A stretch of 40,241 bases of DNA from Myxococcota bacterium (GTDB taxonomy: Bacteria > Myxococcota_A > Polyangia > Polyangiales > Houyiibacteriaceae), in NCBI GenBank assembly GCA_025453555.1, contig JALOQC010000006.1, positions 1 through 40,241 of the forward strand, in the 5' to 3' direction. A program made the translations under genes and the position numbers. The stretch's first letter is position 1. Each line of letters opens with the position of its first letter. Positions 3,157-34,415 of the stretch are shown here, piece after piece. A model generated the notes under the pieces. It worked only from the letters and a program-made list of their open reading frames with translations. It was not told the DNA's origin and made no database searches.

Positions 3157-4752
3157 TCATTTTTCCACGCCTGCGCGAATGGGCGCGGTCTCCAAGAACT
3201 TCCACTCCGCGTGATCGCGGGTTGCGCGCTCGAGCTCCCAGTCGTCGCGGAAGAGCGCGACGAGCGCGCCGTCCTGATCGTGGACCGCGAGGGGGATGCG
3301 GGCGGCGAGGAGCTCGTCGACCCGGGTGGTGCCTTCGATCCAACGCGCGTGCTGGAAGGGCAGGCGGTCGAAGGTGATCTTCGCGCCGTACTCGTGCTGC
3401 AGCCGGAACGTGAGCACGTCGAACTGGAGCTGACCGACCACGCCGCAGATCGGATCCTTCTCGCGGCCCGGCTCGGAGAAGAGCTGCACGGTGCCTTCTT
3501 CGGCGAGCTCGTGGATGCCCTTCTGCAGCTGCTTGCGCTTGAGCGGATCGAGCAGGACCACGCGGCCGAAGTGCTCCGGCGAAAAGCGCGGCACCGCATC
3601 GAAGCTCATCGGACCGTTCGTGCTGAGCGTGTCGCCGATGCGGAAGAGGCCGGGATCGTAGAGCCCGACGATGTCGCCCGCGTAGGCTTCGAGGATCGAC
3701 TCGCGCTCTTGCGCGAAGAACTGCTCGGCGCGGTTCAATCGGATCTCTTTGCCGAGGCGGTAGTGCTGCACGCGCATGCCGCCCTCGAACTTGCCGCTGA
3801 CGATGCGCGCGAAGGCGATCCGATCGCGGTGCGAGGGATCCATGTTCGCCTGCACCTTGAAGACGAAGCAGGAGAAGCGGTCGTCCTCGGGGGAGAGCTC
3901 GTTGCCGGCGGCGTCGAGGCGCGGGCCGGGCACGGGGCAGAGATCCTCGAACGCCTTGAGGAAGGGCTCGATGCCGAAGCTGTTGAGCGCGGAGCCGAAG
4001 AAGACGGGCGTGAGCTCGCCTGCGCGGAACTTGTCGAAGCTCCACTCTTCGCCGGCGCCGTCGAGCAGCTCGATCTCGCTGCGGAGCTGCTGCGCGGGCT
4101 CGCCGCCGAGCAGCGCGTCGACCTCGGCGCTCTCGAGATCCGCGATCTTCACCTCGGCCTTGGAGGCGTTGCCTTTGTCGCCGCGCTCGAAGCGCAGGAC
4201 CTTCTTGCCGTGGCGGTCGTAGACGCCTTGGAAGAGATCGCCGCTGCCGATCGGCCACGTGTACGGCACCGAGCGCATGCCGAGGACCTCCTCGACTTGG
4301 CTCATCAGCTCGAAGGGATCGCGCGCGGGGCGGTCGAGTTTGTTGATGAAGGTGACGACCGGGATGCCGCGCATGCGGCAGACGTGGAAGAGCTTGCGCG
4401 TCTGCGGCTCCACGCCCTTGGCGGCGTCGAGGATCATGATCGCGCAGTCCGCCGCGGTGAGCGTGCGGTAGGTGTCTTCGGAGAAGTCGTTGTGACCGGG
4501 CGTGTCGAGGAGGTTCCAGCGCAGGCCGTCCCACTCGAACTGGAGCACCGAGCTCGTGACGGAGATGCCGCGCTGCTTCTCCAGCTCCATCCAGTCGGAC
4601 GTGGCGGAGCGCTTGGACTTCCGGGACTTGACGGCACCGGCCATGTGAATCGCGCCTCCGTACAGGAGGAGCTTCTCCGTCAGCGTGGTCTTGCCCGCGT
4701 CCGGATGCGAGATGATGGCGAAGGTGCGCCGCTTGAGGTGCTCGCGCAGCAT
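3157..4752 (-). CDS. prfC: Peptide chain release factor 3
   Basis: RF3 is the translational GTPase that releases RF1/RF2 from the ribosome after termination. The 531 residues match the family's usual length (about 530). Visible motifs: G1 SHPDAGKTT near the N-terminus, the switch region with RGISVTSSV, G3 DTPGHNDFSEDTYRTL and G4 NKLDRPARDP, followed by the RF3-specific C-terminal region ending in the ERATRDHAEWKFL segment. Two in-frame ATGs exist, at 4764 (MPRL...) and 4752 (MLREH...). I chose 4752 because a TGCTACATG -10 element overlaps the upstream ATG, which would put the transcription start at the second one. The gene is divergent from the UbiB-like gene. Confidence 0.95.
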   Translation of the reverse strand: MLREHLKRRTFAIISHPDAGKTTLTEKLLLYGGAIHMAGAVKSRKSKRSATSDWMELEKQRGISVTSSVLQFEWDGLRWNLLDTPGHNDFSEDTYRTLTAADCAIMILDAAKGVEPQTRKLFHVCRMRGIPVVTFINKLDRPARDPFELMSQVEEVLGMRSVPYTWPIGSGDLFQGVYDRHGKKVLRFERGDKGNASKAEVKIADLESAEVDALLGGEPAQQLRSEIELLDGAGEEWSFDKFRAGELTPVFFGSALNSFGIEPFLKAFEDLCPVPGPRLDAAGNELSPEDDRFSCFVFKVQANMDPSHRDRIAFARIVSGKFEGGMRVQHYRLGKEIRLNRAEQFFAQERESILEAYAGDIVGLYDPGLFRIGDTLSTNGPMSFDAVPRFSPEHFGRVVLLDPLKRKQLQKGIHELAEEGTVQLFSEPGREKDPICGVVGQLQFDVLTFRLQHEYGAKITFDRLPFQHARWIEGTTRVDELLAARIPLAVHDQDGALVALFRDDWELERATRDHAEWKFLETAPIRAGVEK

Positions 4753-11740: not shown

Positions 11741-12355
11741 ATGATCACCGGCATCCTCTCACTCATGAGCTCCGCCCCTGTCGCATCGCTCGAGGACGTC
11801 GCCGACGACGTCCTCGCCGCGCGTGCGACGGCCGGCGATCGCGAAGCCCTCGAGGCGCTCCTGCGTCGCCACGCGGCGGACGTCTACAAGCTCTGCCACC
11901 TCGTGGCCGGCGAGACCGACGCGCCCGACGCCGCCCAGCGCACGCTCGAGAAGCTCGTGCTCCACATCGATCGTTTCGAGCCGGAGAAGGGCAGCTTCCG
12001 CACCTGGGCGCTGACCGTGGCGCGCAACGTCTGCCGCGATCGTCTGCGTCGCCGCAAGCTCGAACGCGCGACCTTCAACCGCGACGGCGAAGAGCGCGTG
12101 CAGCGAGAGCCCGACGAGCAGCCGAGCCCCGAGCGGCTCGCGCTCGCGCGCATCGACGCGGGCCAAGTCGCCAAGGCGCTCGAGACCTTGCCCGAAGGCA
12201 TGCGCTCGGCGATCGTGCTCTTCCACGTGCACGGCGCGTCGTACGAAGAGATCGCCGAGACCCTCGCCATCCCGAAGGGGACCGTCATGACGTGGTTGCA
12301 CCGTGGTCGTGCCCGCCTGCGCGCCGCGCTCGAGCCGGGGGAGGTGGGCGCATGA
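11741..12355 (+). CDS. ECF-type RNA polymerase sigma factor
   Basis: 204 residues. Region 2 is recognisable around residues 20-105 (ALEALLRRHAADVYKLCHLV, then FRTWALTVARNVCRDRLRR). Region 4 lies at about 145-200 (ALETLPEGMRSAIVLFHVHG, SYEEIAETLAIPKGTVMTWL, HRGRARLRAAL) and would bind the -35 element. ATG 11741 follows AGGA with a 4-nt gap; ATG 11765 is the alternative. Its last four bases (ATGA) contain the start of the next gene, so the two proteins are translationally coupled, the usual arrangement for a sigma factor and its membrane anti-sigma. Region 3 is absent, as expected for the ECF group. Confidence 0.93.
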   Translation: MITGILSLMSSAPVASLEDVADDVLAARATAGDREALEALLRRHAADVYKLCHLVAGETDAPDAAQRTLEKLVLHIDRFEPEKGSFRTWALTVARNVCRDRLRRRKLERATFNRDGEERVQREPDEQPSPERLALARIDAGQVAKALETLPEGMRSAIVLFHVHGASYEEIAETLAIPKGTVMTWLHRGRARLRAALEPGEVGA

Positions 12356-14394
12356 GCCACAACCCGAAGGACCCGTCGGCGGCTGACCCCGCCGACGCGA
12401 AGGACCCGTCGGCGGCTGACCCCGCCGACGCGAAGGAGCCGTCGGCGGCTGACCTCGCCGGCCCGAAGGACCCGTCGGCGGCTGACCCTGCCGGCCCGAG
12501 GGATCCGCGCACGCCGGAGCAGCGATCGCGCGACGAGTCGACGACCGTCGAACGTGTGGAGCGTCGGCTGGACGAGATCGCGGCGCTCGACGACGACGCG
12601 CTCGACGTGCTCGCGCCGCTCACCGAGGAAGAGCTCGCGCTGGAGGCCCTCGCGAACGGACGCGACGACCTCGCGGACGCCGTGCTCGCAGCGATGCTCG
12701 CGGAGGACGAGGGCGGGCGCGCGAAGATCGCGCAGGCCCGCGCGCTGAGCATCGACGTGGGGATCGCGCTGCAGAGCGCGGTTCCGAAGGTCGACGTGCA
12801 GGCGATGGTGACGCACGCGCTCGCCGCATGTCCGCCCGCGCCTTCGCGGCGGAGTCTGGTGTGGGGGAGCGCGCTCGGGGTGCTGGCGACGCTGGTGCTC
12901 TTGCCGCTCGCGATCGAGCTGCCCTCGGCGGGGCAGGTGCTCGACGGCGGGCAGCTCGTGGTCGCGCTCTTCGGGGCGCTCGATCGGCTCGTGGAGGCGA
13001 TCCCCGGTGGCTGGTCGCTGATTGGGCTCGGCCTCGCGATCGGACTCGCGCTCGTGCTGGTGCCGGCGCGCGTGATCACGCGGCGGCTCTCGCCGATCGC
13101 GGCGCTCTTGATCGTCGCGAGCGCGAGCGCGGTGCACGCGCAGCGCTTCGAAGGTGCGTGGCCGGAGGAGTCGACGACCGTGAGCGTGGAGGTCGTCGAC
13201 GCGCCGCGGAGCGAAGCGATCCGCCGCATCGCGGAGGCGGCGGGGCTCGGCGTGGTGGTGCGGCTCGACGACGATCCGAACGTGACGGTGCGCGCGCACG
13301 GCGTGTCGGTGCGCGACGCGCTGCGGGGCGTGCTCGACGACGCGCACGAGGTGCGGCGCGAGGGATCGACGCTCTTCGTGCGTAGGTCGGCGCCTGCGCC
13401 GACGTCGGCGCTGCCCGCTGTTGCGCCGACGGAGGCTGTGCCCGCTGCTGCGACGACGCCGCCAGTCCCGCCGACGCAGACGGTACCCACGTCGCCGGTG
13501 CTTCCCACGATCGCGGCGAGCGCGACGACCCCGAGCGCGACGACCCCGAGCACGCCGGCCGCGAATCCTTCGCGCGCGGAGGCACCGGTGCTCCCGGAGC
13601 GCCGTGCGTTCGGAGGCGACGTCGAGGTGCGCGCGGACGAGCGTGTGCGGTCGGTGTCGGCGTTCGGTGGCGACGTCGACGTGGCGGGCGAGGTCGTGGA
13701 GAACGTCGTCGCGTTCGGCGGTGACGTCGAGGTGCGCGAAGGTGCGCTCGTGCGCGGCGACCTGATGGCGACGGGCGGCGACGTGGTCGTGCGGCGCGGT
13801 GGCGAAGTACAGGGACGCATCATGACGACCGGTGGTGAGCTCCGCGTCGAGGACGGCGCGCGCATGGAGCAACGACCGATCGACGCGGCGGACTTCGACC
13901 GCCACGAAGGGATTCGCAGCGCGCTCTCGTCGGCGGTGAAGCACTCTCTGCTCTTCCTCCTCGGGTTGCTCTTCCTCGGCGTGTTCCGCGAGCGCCACGC
14001 GAACCTCGCGCGCGTGATCGTCGAGCGTCCGGGTCGTACCGCCGTGGTCGGTTTCTTCGGGATGGTCGGCGCGGTCGTGCTGACGATCGTGCTGCTCATC
14101 ACGCTCATCGGGATCCCGGGCGCGCTGGTGGTCGGGCTCGGTACCTTCCTCGCGGTCTATGGCGGCATCGCGGTCACCGCGTCCGTGCTCGGCGCCGTGC
14201 TCCCCTTCGAGGCGCTCGCGGGCCGACCGGTCGCGCAGCTCTTCGTCGGCATCCTCGTGCTCTACCTGCTCTCGCTGGTGCCCGTGCTGGGCGGCGTGGT
14301 CGGCGTGATCGTGGCGTCGCTCGGGCTCGGGGCGATGCTCACGACCCGCTTCGGCGCGCGCGAGCCGCGGAGCGCGCGCGCTCGCGACGACTGA
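12352..14394 (+). CDS. Multi-domain membrane protein: putative anti-sigma region, STN-like domain, beta-repeat domain, C-terminal membrane helices
   Basis: 680 residues, overlapping the sigma gene by 4 bp. In order: an N-terminal 11-residue repeat (KDPSAADPADA, four copies); a charged helical region (about 60-160), the likely sigma-binding part; three hydrophobic segments (about 167-264, ending in a signal-like VHAQ); and an STN-like domain at 272-343 (VSVEVVDAPRSEAIRRIAEA, VRDALRGVLDD), a fold otherwise found at the N-terminus of secretins and TonB receptors. A Pro/Thr linker follows, then four repeats of the (A)FGGDVEVR type at about 418-503 resembling polymer-forming/bactofilin-like strands, and several membrane helices from about 527 to the end. 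The context suggests an anti-sigma that senses the periplasm. No zinc-finger anti-sigma motif is seen, so that role rests on gene order. Confidence 0.75.
   Translation: MSHNPKDPSAADPADAKDPSAADPADAKEPSAADLAGPKDPSAADPAGPRDPRTPEQRSRDESTTVERVERRLDEIAALDDDALDVLAPLTEEELALEALANGRDDLADAVLAAMLAEDEGGRAKIAQARALSIDVGIALQSAVPKVDVQAMVTHALAACPPAPSRRSLVWGSALGVLATLVLLPLAIELPSAGQVLDGGQLVVALFGALDRLVEAIPGGWSLIGLGLAIGLALVLVPARVITRRLSPIAALLIVASASAVHAQRFEGAWPEESTTVSVEVVDAPRSEAIRRIAEAAGLGVVVRLDDDPNVTVRAHGVSVRDALRGVLDDAHEVRREGSTLFVRRSAPAPTSALPAVAPTEAVPAAATTPPVPPTQTVPTSPVLPTIAASATTPSATTPSTPAANPSRAEAPVLPERRAFGGDVEVRADERVRSVSAFGGDVDVAGEVVENVVAFGGDVEVREGALVRGDLMATGGDVVVRRGGEVQGRIMTTGGELRVEDGARMEQRPIDAADFDRHEGIRSALSSAVKHSLLFLLGLLFLGVFRERHANLARVIVERPGRTAVVGFFGMVGAVVLTIVLLITLIGIPGALVVGLGTFLAVYGGIAVTASVLGAVLPFEALAGRPVAQLFVGILVLYLLSLVPVLGGVVGVIVASLGLGAMLTTRFGAREPRSARARDD
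12367..12498 (+). repeat. Four tandem 33-bp units containing the CTGACC-loop hairpin
   Basis: Units begin at 12367, 12400, 12433 and 12466. In the first two, CGTCGGCGG and CCGCCGACG form a perfect 9-bp stem around loop CTGACC (first copy 12374-12397); the right arm has decayed in copies three and four. The array is in frame and encodes the N-terminal KDPSAADPADA repeats. Almost the same unit, with the same period, occurs at 29832 inside an unrelated gene. Confidence 0.9.
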
Positions 14395-14933: not shown

Positions 14934-15011
14934 GGTTCGTGCGGTCCGCTCGCGTTCGTGGCCTTGGGGTTCGCGTGCGCCGGTACGAGCGCCGTCTGTG
15001 GTGTCCGTGCG

Positions 15012-15179
15012 CGCGTCGTCGGTGTGCGCGTCGTCGGCGTGCGCGTCGACGGTGTGCGCGTCGTCGGTGTGTGGCGTCGACGGTGTGCGCGTCGTCGGTG
15101 TGCGCGTCGACGGTGTGCGCGTCGACGGTGTGCGCGTCGACGGTGTGCGCGTCGTGGGTGTGCGCGTCGTGGGTGTGAG
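15012..15179. repeat. Noncoding 15-bp tandem array (about 11 copies)
   Basis: The unit GGTGTGCGCGTCGAC (variants ...GTCGTC, ...GTCGTG) is repeated about 11 times in the 341-bp gap between the divergent lipoprotein and kinase genes. One copy near 15067 (GGTGTGTGGCGTCGAC) has 16 bp and breaks every reading frame, so the array is not kept as coding sequence. No spacers are present, so it is not CRISPR. It is a likely variable-number locus and might affect the kinase promoter. Confidence 0.85.
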
Positions 15180-15259
15180 CGAGCATCGCTCGCGGGGCAT
15201 CTCGCCTCACGCGCCCGCTTTCTGGATCCCTTCGACATCCGTCCGGCACGATCGCCGAC

Positions 15260-20008: not shown

Positions 20009-21549
20009 TCGCGAGGCCACCACGAGGTCGGAGGCAGGGAAGGGCGCGCGTCGGTGCGGGCGTCGCTGCGCGTGTCGGTGGCTTGCTCCGGCGAAGGCGC
20101 GGCGGTGCGTTTCGATCGAGCGCGCGGCGTGCGCCGGAGGCCCCGTGATTCGGACCGCGACGAGTCCGCATCGACGCCGTCCCCGGTCGCGACGACATCG
20201 CCGGTGACACCGTCACGAGCACCGACACCGACACCGACATCGACAGCCCCGACACCGACACCGACAGCCCCGACACCGACAGCCCCGACACCGACAGCCC
20301 CGACACCGACATCGACAGCCCCGACACCGACACCGACAGCCCCGACACCGACAGCCCCGACACCGACAGCCCCGACACCGACAGCCCCGACACCGACACC
20401 GTGGTCACCGACGCGTGCGCTCGCCCCTTCGACGTCCGCGTCGTCGGCGGTGTTCGGGAGCGGCGCCGAGACCACAGGCTCCCACGCCGGCTCCGACTCC
20501 CGCGTCGCTGTGATCCCCACACCCAGTCCGAGCAGCCCCAACGCTCCGATCGCCGCCGCGCGCGCGGCACGCCAACGCGTCGAACTGCGCGCGCGTTTCC
20601 TCAGCACGTCCTGAAGTCGTCGATCGCGTGCCTCTCGAACCCGCGAGCGCAAGGCAGCCCGACGATCGTCGAAGAGCTCCGCCATCAGCTCCTCGAGCCG
20701 CTCGTCCTCGTCGAGCGCGTCCTCGATCGCGCGCAGCCGCTGCGCGACCTCGCGCGCGCTCGCTGGTCGCGACTCCTTCGACTTCGCGAGCAGATCGAAG
20801 ACCAGCTCCACGAGCTCCGGGGGTGCGTCGCGGCGCAGCGCGCCGAGATCCGGCGGATCGTCCTCGACGATGCGTCGCGCGACCTCGGCGTTGGTCGTGC
20901 CTTGGTAGAGGCGCTCACCCGTGAGCAGCTCCACCAGTACGACCCCGAGCGCGAAGAGATCCGTGCGTCGATCGAGCGCACCGCCTTCGATCTGCTCCGG
21001 CGCCGTGTAGCCGACCTTGCCCTTCACCACGCCGATCGAGGTCGCGTCGCCGTGACGACGATCCGCGAGCGCGATCCCGAAATCCGTCAGCCGCACCCCA
21101 CCGTCGAAGCCGATCAACAAGTTCTGCGGCGACACGTCGCGGTGCACCACACCGAGCAGGGTGCCGTCGAGCGACTGCAGCTCGTGCACCGCGTGCAGCC
21201 CGTCGGCCGCCTGACGCATCACGTCGAGCGCGATCTCGAGCGGGATCGGCTCGCCCCCGAGACCGCGGATGAGCTCGCCCACGTGCACGCCCTCCACGAA
21301 ATCCATCACGAGGTAGGGGCCCTCGTCGTCCTCGCCGACGTCGAGCACGCCCACGACGTTCGGGTGCCGCAAGAGGCCCGCGAGCCGCGCCTCGTCGAGG
21401 AACGTCGCGCGTGTCTGCGCGTCGCGCGCGTGCGGCCGCTTCTTCACGTAGAGCCGCTCGTACGAGCCGTCGTGACGCATCACGACCTCGACGCGCCCGA
21501 GCCCGCCCTTCGCGAGCTCGAAGAGCGGCACGTAGCTCGGGGTGCTCAC
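20005..21549 (-). CDS. Membrane-linked Ser/Thr protein kinase with Gly/Val repeat tail
   Basis: 514 residues from GTG 21549, which overlaps the upstream stop as GTGA. The N-terminal kinase domain is complete: a glycine-rich start LAKGGLGRVEV (12-22), Lys in LYVKKRP (34-39), HRDVSPQN at 136-143, DFG at 156-158 and APEQ at 183-186. A single membrane helix is predicted at about 333-350 (AARAAAIGALGLLGLGVGIT). The C-terminal part holds a low-complexity Gly/Val/Ala/Asp array and a basic, Ser/Thr-rich end. The HRDVSPQN form is common in myxobacterial Pkn kinases. It sits between a TPR membrane protein and a winged-helix regulator with both junctions overlapping, so the three are expected to act in one phosphorylation pathway. 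Confidence 0.93.
   Translation of the reverse strand: MSTPSYVPLFELAKGGLGRVEVVMRHDGSYERLYVKKRPHARDAQTRATFLDEARLAGLLRHPNVVGVLDVGEDDEGPYLVMDFVEGVHVGELIRGLGGEPIPLEIALDVMRQAADGLHAVHELQSLDGTLLGVVHRDVSPQNLLIGFDGGVRLTDFGIALADRRHGDATSIGVVKGKVGYTAPEQIEGGALDRRTDLFALGVVLVELLTGERLYQGTTNAEVARRIVEDDPPDLGALRRDAPPELVELVFDLLAKSKESRPASAREVAQRLRAIEDALDEDERLEELMAELFDDRRAALRSRVREARDRRLQDVLRKRARSSTRWRAARAAAIGALGLLGLGVGITATRESEPAWEPVVSAPLPNTADDADVEGASARVGDHGVGVGAVGVGAVGVGAVGVGAVGVGVGAVDVGVGAVGVGAVGVGAVGVGVGAVDVGVGVGARDGVTGDVVATGDGVDADSSRSESRGLRRTPRARSKRTAAPSPEQATDTRSDARTDARPSLPPTSWWPRE
20219..20402 (-). repeat. In-frame tandem array encoding Gly-Val-Ala/Asp repeats
   Basis: About twelve imperfect copies of a 15-bp unit (plus strand ACCGACAGCCCCGAC) with 6-bp variants. 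All lengths are multiples of three, so the kinase's C-terminal repeat region stays in frame. Contrast this with the frame-broken array at 15012. Confidence 0.85.
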
Positions 21550-22411: not shown

Positions 22412-22504
22412 GCCCGCACCCGGCGGCTCGACGCTCCCGAACCACCGCCACCGATTCGATGGTTCGGTCGCCTGACGGCGATGCGCACGTGACGTCGGGT
22501 CGCC

Positions 22505-22532
22505 CGGCCTGGAGGCCGGCGCCAGAAGCGCC
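22505..22532. repeat. Two adjacent small hairpins between divergent operons
   Basis: CGGCC-TGGA-GGCCG (22505-22518) is followed directly by GGCGC-CAGAA-GCGCC (22518-22532), and CGCG-CAAG-CGCG lies just downstream. They occupy the 195-bp gap between the kinase operon and the haem-protein operon and resemble intergenic palindromic units. No gene is seen in the gap. Confidence 0.5.
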
Positions 22533-22589
22533 GATTCGCGCAAGCGCGGTGACGGACGAGCGTGGAGGCCCGGGGCATTCTCGTGAGCG

Positions 22590-24782: not shown

Positions 24783-24872
24783 GGAGGGGCGTTCCGGCGC
24801 CCCTCCCCCCATCGGGCGAAGCCCGAGTGTGGCCCCCCTCCACCCACCCGTCCGCGGGGTCAGCCGCGGACG
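24783..24872. repeat. Three consecutive intercistronic hairpins
   Basis: In the 130-bp gap before the DUF1501 gene: GGAGGGGCG/CGCCCCTCC (24783-24806, perfect 9-bp stem), TCGGGC-GAA-GCCCGA (24812-24826), and CGTCCGCGG-GGTCAG-CCGCGGACG (24849-24872, perfect 9-bp stem). The third has the GGTCAG loop shared with 12374, 29837 and 34397. They could attenuate or stabilise the operon message, and look like a composite dispersed repeat. Confidence 0.75.
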
Positions 24873-27871: not shown

Positions 27872-29341
27872 TCAGCGGGACCCGCAGGGCCCGATCGCGA
27901 AGTACCCGCTCGGCTCTTCGCGAAGCGTGGTGGTCGCGAAGGTGTTCCAGAGGCCCATCGACTCGCCGGAGCCGTTCGCACAGACGTAGGAACGGAAGCT
28001 CCCGCAGCGCGTGCCGCGCCCGGCGCGCTCGTGCGCGTAGTTCGACGAGGTGTGCTCCACGCACGTGCTCGGCGCATTCGCGTCGGAGCCTGCATCCGCG
28101 CTTGCCGCGTCACGCACGGAATCCGTGCCCGAATCGACGAGACCCGCATCGACGCCCGCGTCGCGCCCCGCATCGACGCCTGCGTCGCGTCCGGCATCGA
28201 CGCCCGCGTCGCGCCCCGCGCCCGCGTCGCGTCCGGCATCGACACCGACGCTCGCGTCGACGCTCGGCACGCCGCCGTCCGAGCTCGGCGTGCCCTCGAG
28301 CAGCCCGAAGAAGCGCGCCTGCTCGCGCGCCGCGCAAACGTCCACGTCGACCGCGAACGCGCCCGTCGCGCCACACGACGGCGGATCGATCGCGACCGCG
28401 TGTCCCGCGCCCGGCAGCGTCCAGCTCTCGACCCGCACGCTCGCGCCGTCGAGGTGCCGCGTGCGCACGAGCGCCGCGACCGTGGCGCTCTCGTCCGGCA
28501 TCGCGTCGATGCCGTTCAAGCTCGTGAACTGTTCGACGAGTTCCTCCGCGTTCCTCGGGCGCACCGTGAAGTCCGACGTGCCCTGCCAGACGGAAAGCCG
28601 CGGCCACGGGCCCGCCCATCCGCTCGGTCCGTTCGCGCGCGCTCGCGCCGCCCAATCGCTGCCGCTTCGATCCACGTTGCCGTTCTGGCAGTCGAACGCG
28701 TTCGAGACGCCGGTCGCGCAGCCGACCGGGAGCCCGGAGTGCGCGGCGCCGGCCGCGAACACGTCGGGGTAGGCGGCGAGAAGCGCCGGCGCCATGCCAC
28801 CGCCCGCGGAGAAGCCCGCCGCGAAGACACGCGCGTCGTCGATCGCGAAGCGGCTCTTCACGTGGCTCACCATCGACGCGATCGACGCGACCTCACCCGA
28901 GCCACGTCGCACGTGGGCGGGCTCGAACCAGCGGAAGCACGACGCGCCGTTGTTCGATGAAGTCTGCTGCGGATAGATCACGTAGAAGCCCGCTTGGTCC
29001 GCGATCGTGCTCCAACCGGTGCGCTCGATGTCTGCCGCGCTCTGTGTGCATCCGTGCAGCGCGACGACCACTGCGGCCGGGCTCGCGGGGCGCGCGGGCG
29101 CGTAGAGCCACATCCGCAGGCCACCTGGGTTGCTGCCGAAGGACGAGACCTCCGTGAGCTCACCGCTCGACGAGCCCGACGCTTCTTCGGTCGCGCACGC
29201 GCACGCGATCACACCCACGATCAGACACGCAATCGTGAGCGGTCGTGCGTACCTGCGCGGAGTTGGTGCCTGCGAGCCGGGGCGCCGATCGCTCTCGACG
29301 CACGCGTTCGCTCGAAGCTCGATTCGTTCACGTCCGCTCAT
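27872..29341 (-). CDS. PHB-depolymerase/feruloyl-esterase-like secreted lipoprotein
   Basis: 489 residues from ATG 29341, supported by GGAGGAGGGG 4 nt upstream. The hydrophobic signal TIACLIVGVIACAC contains a lipobox. The esterase domain (about 70-325) has the LpqC/PHB-depolymerase layout: VVVALHGCTQSAADIE (oxyanion hole), nucleophile FAAGFSAGGGMAPALLA, Asp in WQGTSDFTV and His in PGAGHAVAID. After it comes a linker of repeated DAGRDAGV units (DNA about 28130-28260), then a small Cys-containing C-terminal domain (CVEHTSSNYAHERAGRGTRC, CANGSG) that may bind substrate or the cell surface. It overlaps the acyl-CoA ligase gene by 14 bp and ends the minus-strand operon. Confidence 0.88.
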   Translation of the reverse strand: MSGRERIELRANACVESDRRPGSQAPTPRRYARPLTIACLIVGVIACACATEEASGSSSGELTEVSSFGSNPGGLRMWLYAPARPASPAAVVVALHGCTQSAADIERTGWSTIADQAGFYVIYPQQTSSNNGASCFRWFEPAHVRRGSGEVASIASMVSHVKSRFAIDDARVFAAGFSAGGGMAPALLAAYPDVFAAGAAHSGLPVGCATGVSNAFDCQNGNVDRSGSDWAARARANGPSGWAGPWPRLSVWQGTSDFTVRPRNAEELVEQFTSLNGIDAMPDESATVAALVRTRHLDGASVRVESWTLPGAGHAVAIDPPSCGATGAFAVDVDVCAAREQARFFGLLEGTPSSDGGVPSVDASVGVDAGRDAGAGRDAGVDAGRDAGVDAGRDAGVDAGLVDSGTDSVRDAASADAGSDANAPSTCVEHTSSNYAHERAGRGTRCGSFRSYVCANGSGESMGLWNTFATTTLREEPSGYFAIGPCGSR

Positions 29342-30929
29342 GGTTCCCCTCCTCCACGATCGTCCGCAGCGCGGCGCGATCCGTCTTCCCCGTCGCCGTA
29401 CGCGGCAACGCGTCGAGCGCGCGCCAATGGCGCGGGATCTCGTAGCCGGCGAGATGCGCACGCGACCACGCGCGCAGCGCTTCGTCGCTCGGACGCGCCA
29501 CGTCTTCGCGCAGCACGAAGCACGCGAGCCCGACCTCGCCCCAGCGCGCGTCGGGCACCGGCACCACCGCGACCTCCGCGAACGCCGGATGCATCGCGAG
29601 CGCAGCGGCCACCGCGGCCGGGTACACGTTCTCTCCCCCGGATACGAACATGTCCTTCTTGCGATCCACGACGGCGAAGAAGCCGTCCTCGTCGCGCACG
29701 AGCACGTCGCCGGTGTGGAAGTAGCCATCCGCGTCGAGCACCTGCGCCGTCAGCTCGGGCGCGCGGAAGTAGCCCGTCGTCACGGCGGGACCACGCAGCC
29801 AGAGCTCGCCCGGCTCGTTCGCGTCGCACTCGGATCCGTCGGCGGCTGACCCCGTCGACTCGAAGGATCCGTCGCGCACGAGCCGCGCCTCCAGATGGAA
29901 CGTCGGCACACCGACCGTGCCGAAGCGATGCGGCCCGTCGAGTGGCGAGAGCGTGAAGCAGTTCGGCCCGACTTCGGTGAGCCCGTAGCCCTGCCGCATC
30001 GGCAGTCCCGCGTCGTGGAAGCGTTCGTGCAGCGCGCGCGAGAGCGGCGCGCCTCCACACAGGAGCGCGCGCAGGTGGGGCTGCGCGTGCAGGCCGGCCG
30101 CGAGCAACGACTCGTACATCGTCGGCACCGCGATCGTCGTCGTCACGTCGCCGCGGTGGAGCAGCGCGACCTCGCGCTCCGCGTCGAAGCCGGGCGTCAG
30201 CACGATCGATCCGCCGCGGTGCAGGAGCGGCGTCGCGAGGCAATGCAGCCCGCCGGTGTGAAAGAGAGGCAGACACGCGAGCGCACGATCGTGCTCGGTC
30301 AGCCCCGCCGCGAGCGCGGTGCTCACCGCGTTGAAGACGACCTGTCGCCACGTGATGCACACGCCCTTCGGCGCGGCGGTGGTGCCGCTGGTGTACAGGA
30401 CGAGCGGCACGTCCTCGAGCGCGACGTCGCCGTACCGCGCCGCGCCGAGGAGCGACTCGTACGCGACGTCCTCACCGCGCGCGCGACGGTCCCCGAGCGC
30501 GATCCCTCGCGGCGTGACGCGAGTGGTTCCGTTCGTTTCCCACGCGGAAGGCTCCGTGATCGACGCGTGCGCGAGCAGCTCGTGCGCGAGCTCGACGAAG
30601 GTGTCGTCGTAGACGACCGCGGCCGGCTCCGCGCTCGCCACGATCGCGCGCAGCTTCGTGAGCGGCTGCCGCGTGTTGAGCGGCACGAGCGTGAGCTTCG
30701 CGCGTGCACAGGCGAAGAGCAGCTCGAAGACCTCTGCGCGCCCTTCGCTCACCAGCGCGATGCGCGCGCCGGTGGGCAACGTCGCCGCGAGCCCCGCTGC
30801 GATCCGCGCGGCACGATCATCGAGCGAGCCATACGTCCAAGCCCGCGCGCCACGAGTCGCCGACGCGACCTCTTCGATCGCGATTCGATCAGGTGCGATC
30901 GAGGCCCACCGACGCAGGAAGTCGTGCAT
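29328..30929 (-). CDS. Acyl-CoA ligase (AMP-binding family, MenE/fatty-acid-CoA-ligase-like)
   Basis: 533 residues from ATG 30929, 8 nt after the OMP gene's stop with GAGG upstream. ANL-family motifs in order: VLYTSGTTAAPKGVCI (P-loop), YGLTEVGP, DGYFHTGD, VVDRKKDMFVSGGENVYPA, and a C-terminal Lys in LPRTATGKTDRAALR. It should activate a carboxylic acid to its CoA thioester through an acyl-AMP. It has no signal peptide, so it is cytoplasmic and would act on acids released outside and imported. Between EARLVRD and ANEPGELWLRGP it carries an insertion (GSFESTGSAADGS...) that coincides with a copy of the 33-bp dispersed hairpin element. The exact substrate, fatty, hydroxy or aromatic, is not readable. 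Confidence 0.92.
   Translation of the reverse strand: MHDFLRRWASIAPDRIAIEEVASATRGARAWTYGSLDDRAARIAAGLAATLPTGARIALVSEGRAEVFELLFACARAKLTLVPLNTRQPLTKLRAIVASAEPAAVVYDDTFVELAHELLAHASITEPSAWETNGTTRVTPRGIALGDRRARGEDVAYESLLGAARYGDVALEDVPLVLYTSGTTAAPKGVCITWRQVVFNAVSTALAAGLTEHDRALACLPLFHTGGLHCLATPLLHRGGSIVLTPGFDAEREVALLHRGDVTTTIAVPTMYESLLAAGLHAQPHLRALLCGGAPLSRALHERFHDAGLPMRQGYGLTEVGPNCFTLSPLDGPHRFGTVGVPTFHLEARLVRDGSFESTGSAADGSECDANEPGELWLRGPAVTTGYFRAPELTAQVLDADGYFHTGDVLVRDEDGFFAVVDRKKDMFVSGGENVYPAAVAAALAMHPAFAEVAVVPVPDARWGEVGLACFVLREDVARPSDEALRAWSRAHLAGYEIPRHWRALDALPRTATGKTDRAALRTIVEEGNHERT
29832..29873 (-). repeat. 33-bp dispersed hairpin element inside the ligase gene
   Basis: GGATCCGTCG recurs at 29832 and 29865, so the period is 33 bp, as in the array at 12367. 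The stretch CCGTCGGCGGCTGACCCCG (29836-29854) is also present at 12373. The gene reads the element from the strand opposite to that used at 12367, giving GSAADGS instead of DPSAADP, and the insertion keeps frame. Confidence 0.8.
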
Positions 30930-30937
30930 GAAGGACC

Positions 30938-32593
30938 TCAGATCAACAGTCGCATCGAGAGGATCACGCTGTCGGTCGCCTTGATGCGCGCGACCATCGT
31001 CGTGTCCGTCTCCAGCTCCGCCATCGAGCGCGCCCAGCGCAGCCCGAGCGAGACGTTCGGCTCGCGCAGCCAATACGTCGCGCCGACGTTGAGGTACTGG
31101 TTCACGACCGAGTCGGTCTCCGACGTCGACGAGCGCATCCAGTAGTACGTCGCGCCGAAGCCGAACGCGTCCCAGCGGAAGTCGAGCCCGCCGGCGGCGA
31201 GCACGCCTTCGAAGTCGACCTTCGTCATCGTGAGGTCGGGGATCGCGAGCTGTTCGTTGCTCCGGTACGCGAAGCTCCCGTGCAGCTCGAGGTGATCGCG
31301 CCACGGCTTCACGCGCGCGGTGGCGCGCAGGTTGTAGCCGGTGAGCTCGAGATCGGTGTCCGCCGTCACGTCCGGATCGACGCGGTAGATCTGCGCGGCG
31401 AGCTTCACGTCGAAGACGTCGTGCTCGTACGAGATCGACGGGGTCGTCACATACATGTGGATGTCGGAGCCCGGGATGCCGTTCGCGAGCGCGCGGAGCG
31501 GCGCGCTGAACAGGGTTCCGAGCGCGGAGACGTCGCCACCGAAGCCGAACGCGAGCGACGAGGTCAGCGGGTTGCCCGCCGTGAACGAGACTCCGCCCGT
31601 GAGCCCGCGCCAGGAGTAGCGGAGCATGAAGCCTTGCCCCTGCGAGAAGCCGCTCACGAGCAGCGGATCGCGCACGTAGGGATCCATGCCGAACGCGTCG
31701 AGGATGTTCACCGAGACGTAGTCCGCGGTGGCGGGATCGCGGAGGATGCCTCCGGTCAGCGAGAGGCCCCACTTGTCGAGCTGCAAGTAGTTCTCGCGTG
31801 CTTGCAGCGACGCGGTGCCCTCCCACACGCTCGTGCCGACGGGACCGTTGCGCGCGAGGCTGTAGCCGAGGTTGCGCTCGAAGACGCTGCGGAACGTGAG
31901 GAATCCGAAGAGCCGACCTTCGAAGCCGAAGCGCGAGAGCGCGAGGGTCGAGAGCCGCACTGCGAGCGAGTCGACCACGTCGCTGTGCGGCACGTAGGTC
32001 ACGAGCATCGCCGACATCTGCAGCACCGGCTTGATGAACCCGTGCTCGCCTTCCCAGATCGCGAACTCCGGCACCATCGGTGCGTCGGCGGTGGTGAGCA
32101 CACGCTGAGCGGCGGAGTCGCCAGGGTTCGTCGGACCCACTTCGCGCGCGTCGGCGTCGCTCGTGCGGGCGCTCGCGTCACCATCCGCATCGTCACCATC
32201 CGTATCGTCACGATCCGCTTCGAGAGCGGCGCGTGCGACTGCTTCTGAGCGAACGGAGTCGGAGAGCGAGTCGGAGTCGGAGGCGGCGTCGGAGGCGGCG
32301 TCGGAGGCGGCGTCGGAGGCGGAGTCGGAGACCGAGTCGGAGACCGAGTCGGAGACCGAGTCGGAGTCGGAGGCGTCGTCGGAGTCGGAGGCGGCGTCGG
32401 AGGCGGAGGCGGCGTCGGAGTCGGAGGCGGCGTCGGAGGCGTTGGAGGCGGCGTCGGAGTCGGAGTCGGAGACCGAGCGTGACACCGAGCCGGAGCCCGA
32501 ATTGCCGGGACCGCTCGGAGCGGTCGGGGCCTGCGCGTGCGAGGGGCGCGCCGCGAGGCCGAAGAAGCAGAGCGCGAGCAACGTGCGAGTCAT
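30938..32593 (-). CDS. Outer-membrane beta-barrel protein with long Ser/Asp/Ala repeat region
   Basis: 551 residues from ATG 32593, with GGAGGAACCG directly upstream. Signal peptide MTRTLLALCFFGLAARPSHA. Residues about 38-120 are an array of SD, AASD and VSD repeats (DNA about 32233-32490, all in frame), strongly acidic and possibly calcium-binding. The remaining 390 residues alternate amphipathic strands with many aromatic and Gly residues (KPVLQMSAMLVTYVPHSDVV, LDFRWDAFGFGATYYWM, VSLGLRWARSMAELE), as expected for a porin-like barrel. It ends RLLI, without the usual terminal aromatic. Its place just before an acyl-CoA ligase suggests a substrate channel, but no FadL signature is recognised. 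Confidence 0.83.
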   Translation of the reverse strand: MTRTLLALCFFGLAARPSHAQAPTAPSGPGNSGSGSVSRSVSDSDSDAASNASDAASDSDAASASDAASDSDDASDSDSVSDSVSDSVSDSASDAASDAASDAASDSDSLSDSVRSEAVARAALEADRDDTDGDDADGDASARTSDADAREVGPTNPGDSAAQRVLTTADAPMVPEFAIWEGEHGFIKPVLQMSAMLVTYVPHSDVVDSLAVRLSTLALSRFGFEGRLFGFLTFRSVFERNLGYSLARNGPVGTSVWEGTASLQARENYLQLDKWGLSLTGGILRDPATADYVSVNILDAFGMDPYVRDPLLVSGFSQGQGFMLRYSWRGLTGGVSFTAGNPLTSSLAFGFGGDVSALGTLFSAPLRALANGIPGSDIHMYVTTPSISYEHDVFDVKLAAQIYRVDPDVTADTDLELTGYNLRATARVKPWRDHLELHGSFAYRSNEQLAIPDLTMTKVDFEGVLAAGGLDFRWDAFGFGATYYWMRSSTSETDSVVNQYLNVGATYWLREPNVSLGLRWARSMAELETDTTMVARIKATDSVILSMRLLI

Positions 32594-34396: not shown

Positions 34397-34415
34397 TCGG
34401 CGGGTCAGCCGCCGA
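34397..34415. repeat. CTGACC/GGTCAG-loop hairpin, intergenic copy
   Basis: TCGGCGG-GTCAG-CCGCCGA is a perfect 7-bp stem with the same loop letters as the elements at 12374 and 24849. It stands between the lipase gene and the Kazal gene. Confidence 0.65.

Follow-up and report, generated by a model that had tools for sequence, protein, structure and literature searches.

The SDR of cyanobacteria, which Elhai et al. are said to have described in 2008, are reportedly dispersed and possibly mobile sequences of about 20–27 bp with hairpin cores. Among the REP elements, the CGTC super-family has an unpaired CGTC tag, an 8–9 bp stem that starts with A/T pairs, a 4–5 nt loop and a CCA-like tail (PMC3733652), and two REPs in inverted orientation form one hairpin, called a REPIN (PMC3733652, PMC3116915). 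RAYTs act on hairpins (PMC8266576, PMC3116915). REP families within genes have already been described, and the Rickettsia conorii repeats RPE-4 and RPE-6 are filed as intragenic REPs (PMC3733652). RPEs measure 105–146 bp (PMC2229807). PARCELs encode a 25-residue amphipathic motif, occur only in tandem and have spread across clades by horizontal transfer (PMC2996958).

We analyzed a 40,241-nucleotide stretch of DNA from a Myxococcota bacterium (the window), together with its genome, an 8.33 Mb MAG (G000; 71% G+C, 699 contigs, 89% complete), and a genome of the same genus that is equally GC-rich (G001). Gene context was read from a sample of about 1.05 Mb of the MAG that was partly picked for containing matches and that includes a hit-independent part of 0.42 Mb; according to a codon-usage gene model, 86% of the sampled DNA is coding and 14% noncoding. 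We consider it likely that the window holds members of a hairpin family that is dispersed, probably mobile and present in frame within genes.

The unit of this family spans about 33 bp and consists of an 8–9 bp stem around the loop CTGACC, of a 5-nt spacer and of a 6-bp repeat, which recurs on the other side of the element. The first-pass annotation had placed such hairpins at four loci in the window, and all of them are present as described, except that the copy at 34397 is degenerate and the copy at 29837 carries one stem mismatch. On the forward strand, four 33-bp units are arrayed head-to-tail at 12362–12507 (TRF period 33, 4.4 copies, 91% match), with hairpins at 12374–12397, 12407–12430, 12440–12463 and 12473–12496, the stems of units 3 and 4 being decayed. 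The array makes up residues 7–48 of a 680-aa protein (12352–14394, forward strand, by gene model and translation), where it is read as 11-aa units of the PSAADPADAKD type just after the start codon. An ECF-type sigma factor gene (11741–12355, forward strand; Pfam Sigma70_r2 1.5e-16, Sigma70_r4_2 1.8e-15) overlaps the start of this host gene in an ATGA overlap. The earlier label of an anti-sigma-like host therefore stands as to position, directly downstream of an ECF sigma factor, but the host protein itself has no Pfam match.

The second in-gene copy occupies 29832–29870 on the forward strand, within an AMP-binding acyl-CoA ligase gene on the reverse strand (29328–30779; Pfam AMP-binding 4–338, 1.7e-60), and supplies residues 306–314 (STGSAADG) within the AMP-binding domain. 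Its hairpin (29837–29860), with the mismatched stem CCGTCGACT, is flanked by GGATCC direct repeats at 29832–29837 and 29865–29870. A 33-bp period had been claimed at this site; the 33-bp spacing is there, but it is that of one copy between direct repeats of GGATCCGTC starting at 29832 and 29865. The two remaining copies are intergenic and on the reverse strand. The hairpin at 24849–24872 belongs to the CGTCCGCGG-CTGACC-CCGCGGACG subfamily and is part of a composite of about 90 bp (24783–24872, reverse strand) in which it is fused to GGTGGGTGGAGGGGGGCC and two more hairpins. About ten CTGACC copies in the MAG are fused to this longer repeat, the composite has several near-full copies there, and G001 has one copy of it, whose stem GCTCGCGG/CCGCGAGC is an additional, compensated variant. 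The copy at 34397–34415 has lost one C, leaving a 7-bp stem and a 5-nt loop.

Other repeats were seen beside these copies. A second dispersed family of about 110–130 bp, composed of GTGGGTGGGGG, a GGGGCTTCAGCCCC hairpin, GGGGGAGGG and a GGTCTGGCGACAGACC hairpin, has copies at window positions 22452–22563, at L077:13064–13344 and at L036:4886–5044; it accounts for 52 repeat segments in 1 Mb and is present at 45 or more places in the whole genome. G001 contains similar pieces, and the composite that carries the CTGACC hairpin has the same layout as this second family. Unrelated long minisatellites lie in the window at 15003–15181, 20228–20401 and 32254–32471, with periods of 12, 15 and 18 bp that are all multiples of three, and other contigs also contain (GAGGCGGAGTCG)n-like arrays.

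By itself, the hexamer CTGACC shows no enrichment in the window (21 occurrences against 20.3 expected); the excess resides in its hairpin form. Across 1.05 Mb of the MAG there are 326 hairpins with an 8-bp stem and a 6-nt loop, counted on both strands. Among stems of at least 8 bp, the loop CTGACC occurs 85 times and its complement also 85 times, compared to at most 4 times for any other 6-nt loop; the result is unchanged in the hit-independent 0.42 Mb (14 CTGACC loops, with 2 for the next loop), where copies number about 33 per Mb. The CTGACC stems are 8 bp long in 64 cases and 9 bp long in 21, while control hexamers never sit in a stem of more than 6 bp. We found stem subfamilies GTCGGCGG, GTCCGCGG, GTCGGCCG and CGCGGCGG, each with a matching 3′ arm, and in some subfamilies the flanking hexamers are themselves palindromic (GGATCC, CGATCG, GAAGCTTC), extending the hairpin.

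In a covariation test on 21 distinct sequences, 91.7% of cells were paired and five of the eight pairs were altered on both sides. None of 500 shuffles reached the observed pairing scores, a count that is not a probability as the rows are related, and slid-structure controls brought pairing down to 22–65%. The data thus bear out the original proposal of a constant CTGACC loop with compensating stems. A search of the window against Rfam gave no match above the curated threshold.

The genome-wide excess of stem-CTGACC-stem, on which the first-pass annotation had staked its reading, is present: the core GCGGCTGACCCCGC has 347 exact matches in the whole genome compared to 2 for the reversed control, and 468 compared to 40 when one mismatch is allowed. 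A fragmented MAG of 699 contigs with 71% G+C could in principle produce such a signal by chance, by base composition, or through an assembly or contamination artefact. However, the reversed pattern is nearly absent, the copies are distributed across many contigs, and no similar excess is seen in relatives, including the equally GC-rich G001, so that we find an artefact scarcely credible. The core occurs 8 times in G001 (control 2) and 0–5 times in other relatives, roughly at the control level. The full palindrome is found 325 times in the MAG, once in G001 and in none of 377 further genomes from this phylum; therefore, the amplification of this hairpin family is lineage-specific. Its spread was probably recent, because over half of the palindromes sampled in the MAG (57) are one identical 22-mer. 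When named genomes were scanned, at least nine had one match each; these are unrelated bacteria, mainly Streptomyces and other actinobacteria, and among the matches listed such single matches look like chance. One full CTGACC palindrome was also seen on the viral contig IMGVR_UViG_3300048783_000013 (L213), at 3682–3703.

The sample of about 1 Mb holds 106 copies at 70 loci, 55 of which are single-copy. The genome has many unrelated in-gene tandem repeats and the arrays expand in place, as would suit ordinary coding minisatellites that arose gene by gene through slippage in GC-rich linkers. Yet the same 22-bp sequence and loop recur across the 70 sampled loci, 31 of them outside genes, and on both strands. 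The dispersed single copies contradict a minisatellite origin, which we hold to be highly improbable.

The 31 loci that lie between genes or run across a gene end represent an enrichment over the noncoding share of the DNA (14%; p = 2e-9). The other 39 lie within genes, all in open frames, and in-frame entry into unrelated genes as 11-residue units, first proposed for two genes, now extends to 39 in-gene loci. The hosts include the acyl-CoA ligase, a HAD phosphatase, a helicase, a sigma-54 activator, a Na/Ca exchanger, an EamA transporter, a fused Dpp ATPase, a TonB receptor and others, and the majority of inserts are located outside annotated domains. The constant loop and the intergenic enrichment could also be those of a functional element under selection, such as a nucleoid site or other protein-binding site, a terminator or an mRNA processing site, rather than of a selfish one. 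Against a functional role, the family is virtually missing from the other genomes sampled, both within the genus and in the remainder of the phylum, over half of the loci lie, in either orientation, in genes whose functions are unrelated, and convergent gene ends (3 loci) are not preferred over other gaps. We consider such a role improbable.

Relative to the host gene, 15 in-gene copies are on the same strand and 24 on the opposite strand. One preferred frame per orientation accounts for 30 of the 39 loci: 13 of the 15 same-strand copies read SAADPAD or near (p = 0.004) and 17 of the 24 opposite-strand copies read SAGSAAD or near (p = 0.0002), both compared to equal use of the stop-free frames. 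Five of the element's six frames are stop-free and, because its 33 bp also equal 11 codons, many in-gene copies would survive. The codon phase of the flanking hexamer differs between the two preferred frames; therefore, selection on the peptide appears a better explanation of the frame bias than target preference.

The first-pass annotation had proposed comparing the inserts with orthologues, and in the acyl-CoA ligase the residues are missing from homologues exactly at the element. Five homologues from related genomes lack 10–11 residues at this point, and solved acyl-CoA synthetase structures likewise lack 10–11 residues there. In the HAD phosphatase, the element is inside the domain and corresponds to extra residues compared to 2 of the 3 best solved relatives. 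The G001 orthologue (88% identical) of one gene downstream of an element has no hairpin in its leader. A nucleotide-level empty site was not seen in the G001 alignment, where orthologues are 65–88% identical and intergenic gaps are unalignable. With relatives this distant, the exact inserted length and a target duplication are therefore unproven.

Close neighbor copies are always on the same strand and head-to-tail (36 of 36 pairs in the MAG sample, none inverted). Their spacing is 33 bp in 29 of the 36 cases, within genes and in intergenic DNA alike; because intergenic arrays have the same spacing, the 33-bp period is not a product of frame selection. Repetition of sequence at period 33 is restricted to 6 bp on either side of the hairpin. 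At 66 loci, the hexamers in the flanks are those of the subfamily (CGAGAA, GGATCC and others). When flank matches within loci were tested by permutation, the AAGTC group showed no excess (p = 0.79) and the GGATCC group a weak one (p = 0.017), which is partial support for a target-site duplication. The 6-bp flanks mostly follow the subfamily and not the locus; we therefore do not call them a target-site duplication, and they may belong to the element itself. The same pattern bears on a comparison with MITEs: 6-bp flanking direct repeats exist but track the subfamily, and no matching IS was found.

A mechanism can be proposed that would connect these features, though we give its detailed single-strand, in-trans copying route slightly less than an even chance. 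The element would be non-autonomous, and its single-stranded DNA would fold into a hairpin. A protein acting in trans would recognize the loop and the shape of the stem, rather than the stem sequence, and new sites would receive copies of the hairpin through this protein. Slippage between the flanking 6-bp repeats would duplicate the unit head-to-tail, and insertions that break genes would be purged by selection. The surviving in-gene copies would lie mostly in linkers, ends and loops, in frames that give peptides rich in Ala, Ser, Gly and Asp.

A more specific version of our preferred explanation, the mobile hairpin family, names the mover: a Y1 (HUH) RAYT-like transposase of the lineage would have moved the copies, and the family would be a REP relative with its tag lost or changed. 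The Pfam Y1_Tnp model (PF01797) gave no match in the MAG, which is 89% complete, but this model is too narrow for the RAYT-like genes concerned. Using a G001 RAYT-like protein (VVVMSNHIHLV motif) as the query, we located two open RAYT-like genes in the MAG, at C355:20033–20743 (L234) and C407:4860–5570 (L235), whose proteins are 86% identical to each other and have the motif MSTHYHLL, as well as pseudogene pieces on C199, C9, C246 and C503. Matches to NCBIfam REP_Tyr_transpos (NF047646) were below the cut-off (1.3e-7 for the C355 protein, 2.6e-16 for the G001 protein). These genes and matches, and the action of RAYTs on hairpins, speak for such a mover. However, the fetched flanks of the C355 and C407 genes hold no CTGACC hairpin, the pseudogene pieces lie among AACGTKCCACCRTTTTTGCCC repeats, and the intact G001 genes are surrounded by GGATCCACCAATC hairpins, being RAYTs with their own, different REP. 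Moreover, the CTGACC copies have no unpaired GTAG or CGTC tag and form no inverted pairs. RAYT-like enzymes are present in the MAG, with no link to the CTGACC copies seen in the flanks covered, and we regard a RAYT mover as possible but lean against it. Separately, broken RAYT-like pieces that lack the HUH part are repeated in place at L064:7141–9534 and L039:379–1878 among the AACGTKCCACCRTTTTTGCCC repeats, and the intact G001 genes, at L136:6900–9900 (C201) and L215 (C35), lie inside dense GAGGATCCACCAATCTTTCC palindrome arrays.

A more far-reaching interpretation would make the copies a class of codon-sized mobile nano-elements, with constant-loop recognition, free stems, head-to-tail growth, a mover other than the known REP transposases, and an 11-codon unit that settles equally often inside and outside genes; we judge this unlikely. 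As a probably mobile family residing in genes in frame, the CTGACC hairpins provide a non-Rickettsia case of a palindromic repeat that feeds peptide inserts into unrelated proteins, with 39 in-gene loci in about one-eighth of the genome, which was sampled in part because of its hits. The frame, orientation and number of the copies and their position in linkers can all be counted, which makes the route from a mobile hairpin to coding sequence testable, and a loop that is fixed, stems that are free to vary and arrays that grow head-to-tail narrow the search for the mover of tag-less REP-like elements.

Compared to known systems, the family resembles the RPEs in behavior, as had been suggested, since both are palindromic repeats fused in frame to unrelated genes, missing from homologues and tolerated by the protein (PMC2229807). 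The kinship does not hold: a 33-bp unit with an 8–9 bp stem and 33-bp arrays, in another organism and with another sequence, stands against the 105–146 bp of RPEs with their long terminal inverted repeats. Nor are RPEs the sole precedent, because in-gene REP families have been described (PMC3733652). PARCELs, too, are DNA palindromes from which a repeat peptide is read in frame (PMC2996958), whereas the CTGACC family has an 11-residue hydrophilic unit, is found in one genome and consists mostly of single copies.

The likeness to REPs and REPINs lies in palindromes of 20–40 bp, hundreds of copies, variable stems, a kept architecture and some in-frame gene copies (PMC3733652, PMC3116915). Unlike in REPs, the constant part is the 6-nt loop, genes contain over half of the loci sampled, and no linked RAYT was found. 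No constant unpaired GTAG, as in the GTAG super-family, was found at the palindrome end in the flanks of the 66 loci. Compared to the CGTC super-family, GTC is here paired with GAC, the outer base depends on the subfamily and the loop has 6 nt, which places the hairpins outside it. The family is also distinct from REPINs, because its arrays are only head-to-tail and never inverted. By their description, the SDR of cyanobacteria would be alike in size, dispersal and hairpin core. By these comparisons, the CTGACC family most likely works like REP and RPE elements and is probably best described as REP/RPE/SDR-like. REPs inside genes have been described before (PMC3733652), so the principle has precedents; what is new is the family itself, the way it grows head-to-tail and the proportion of its copies that reside in genes.
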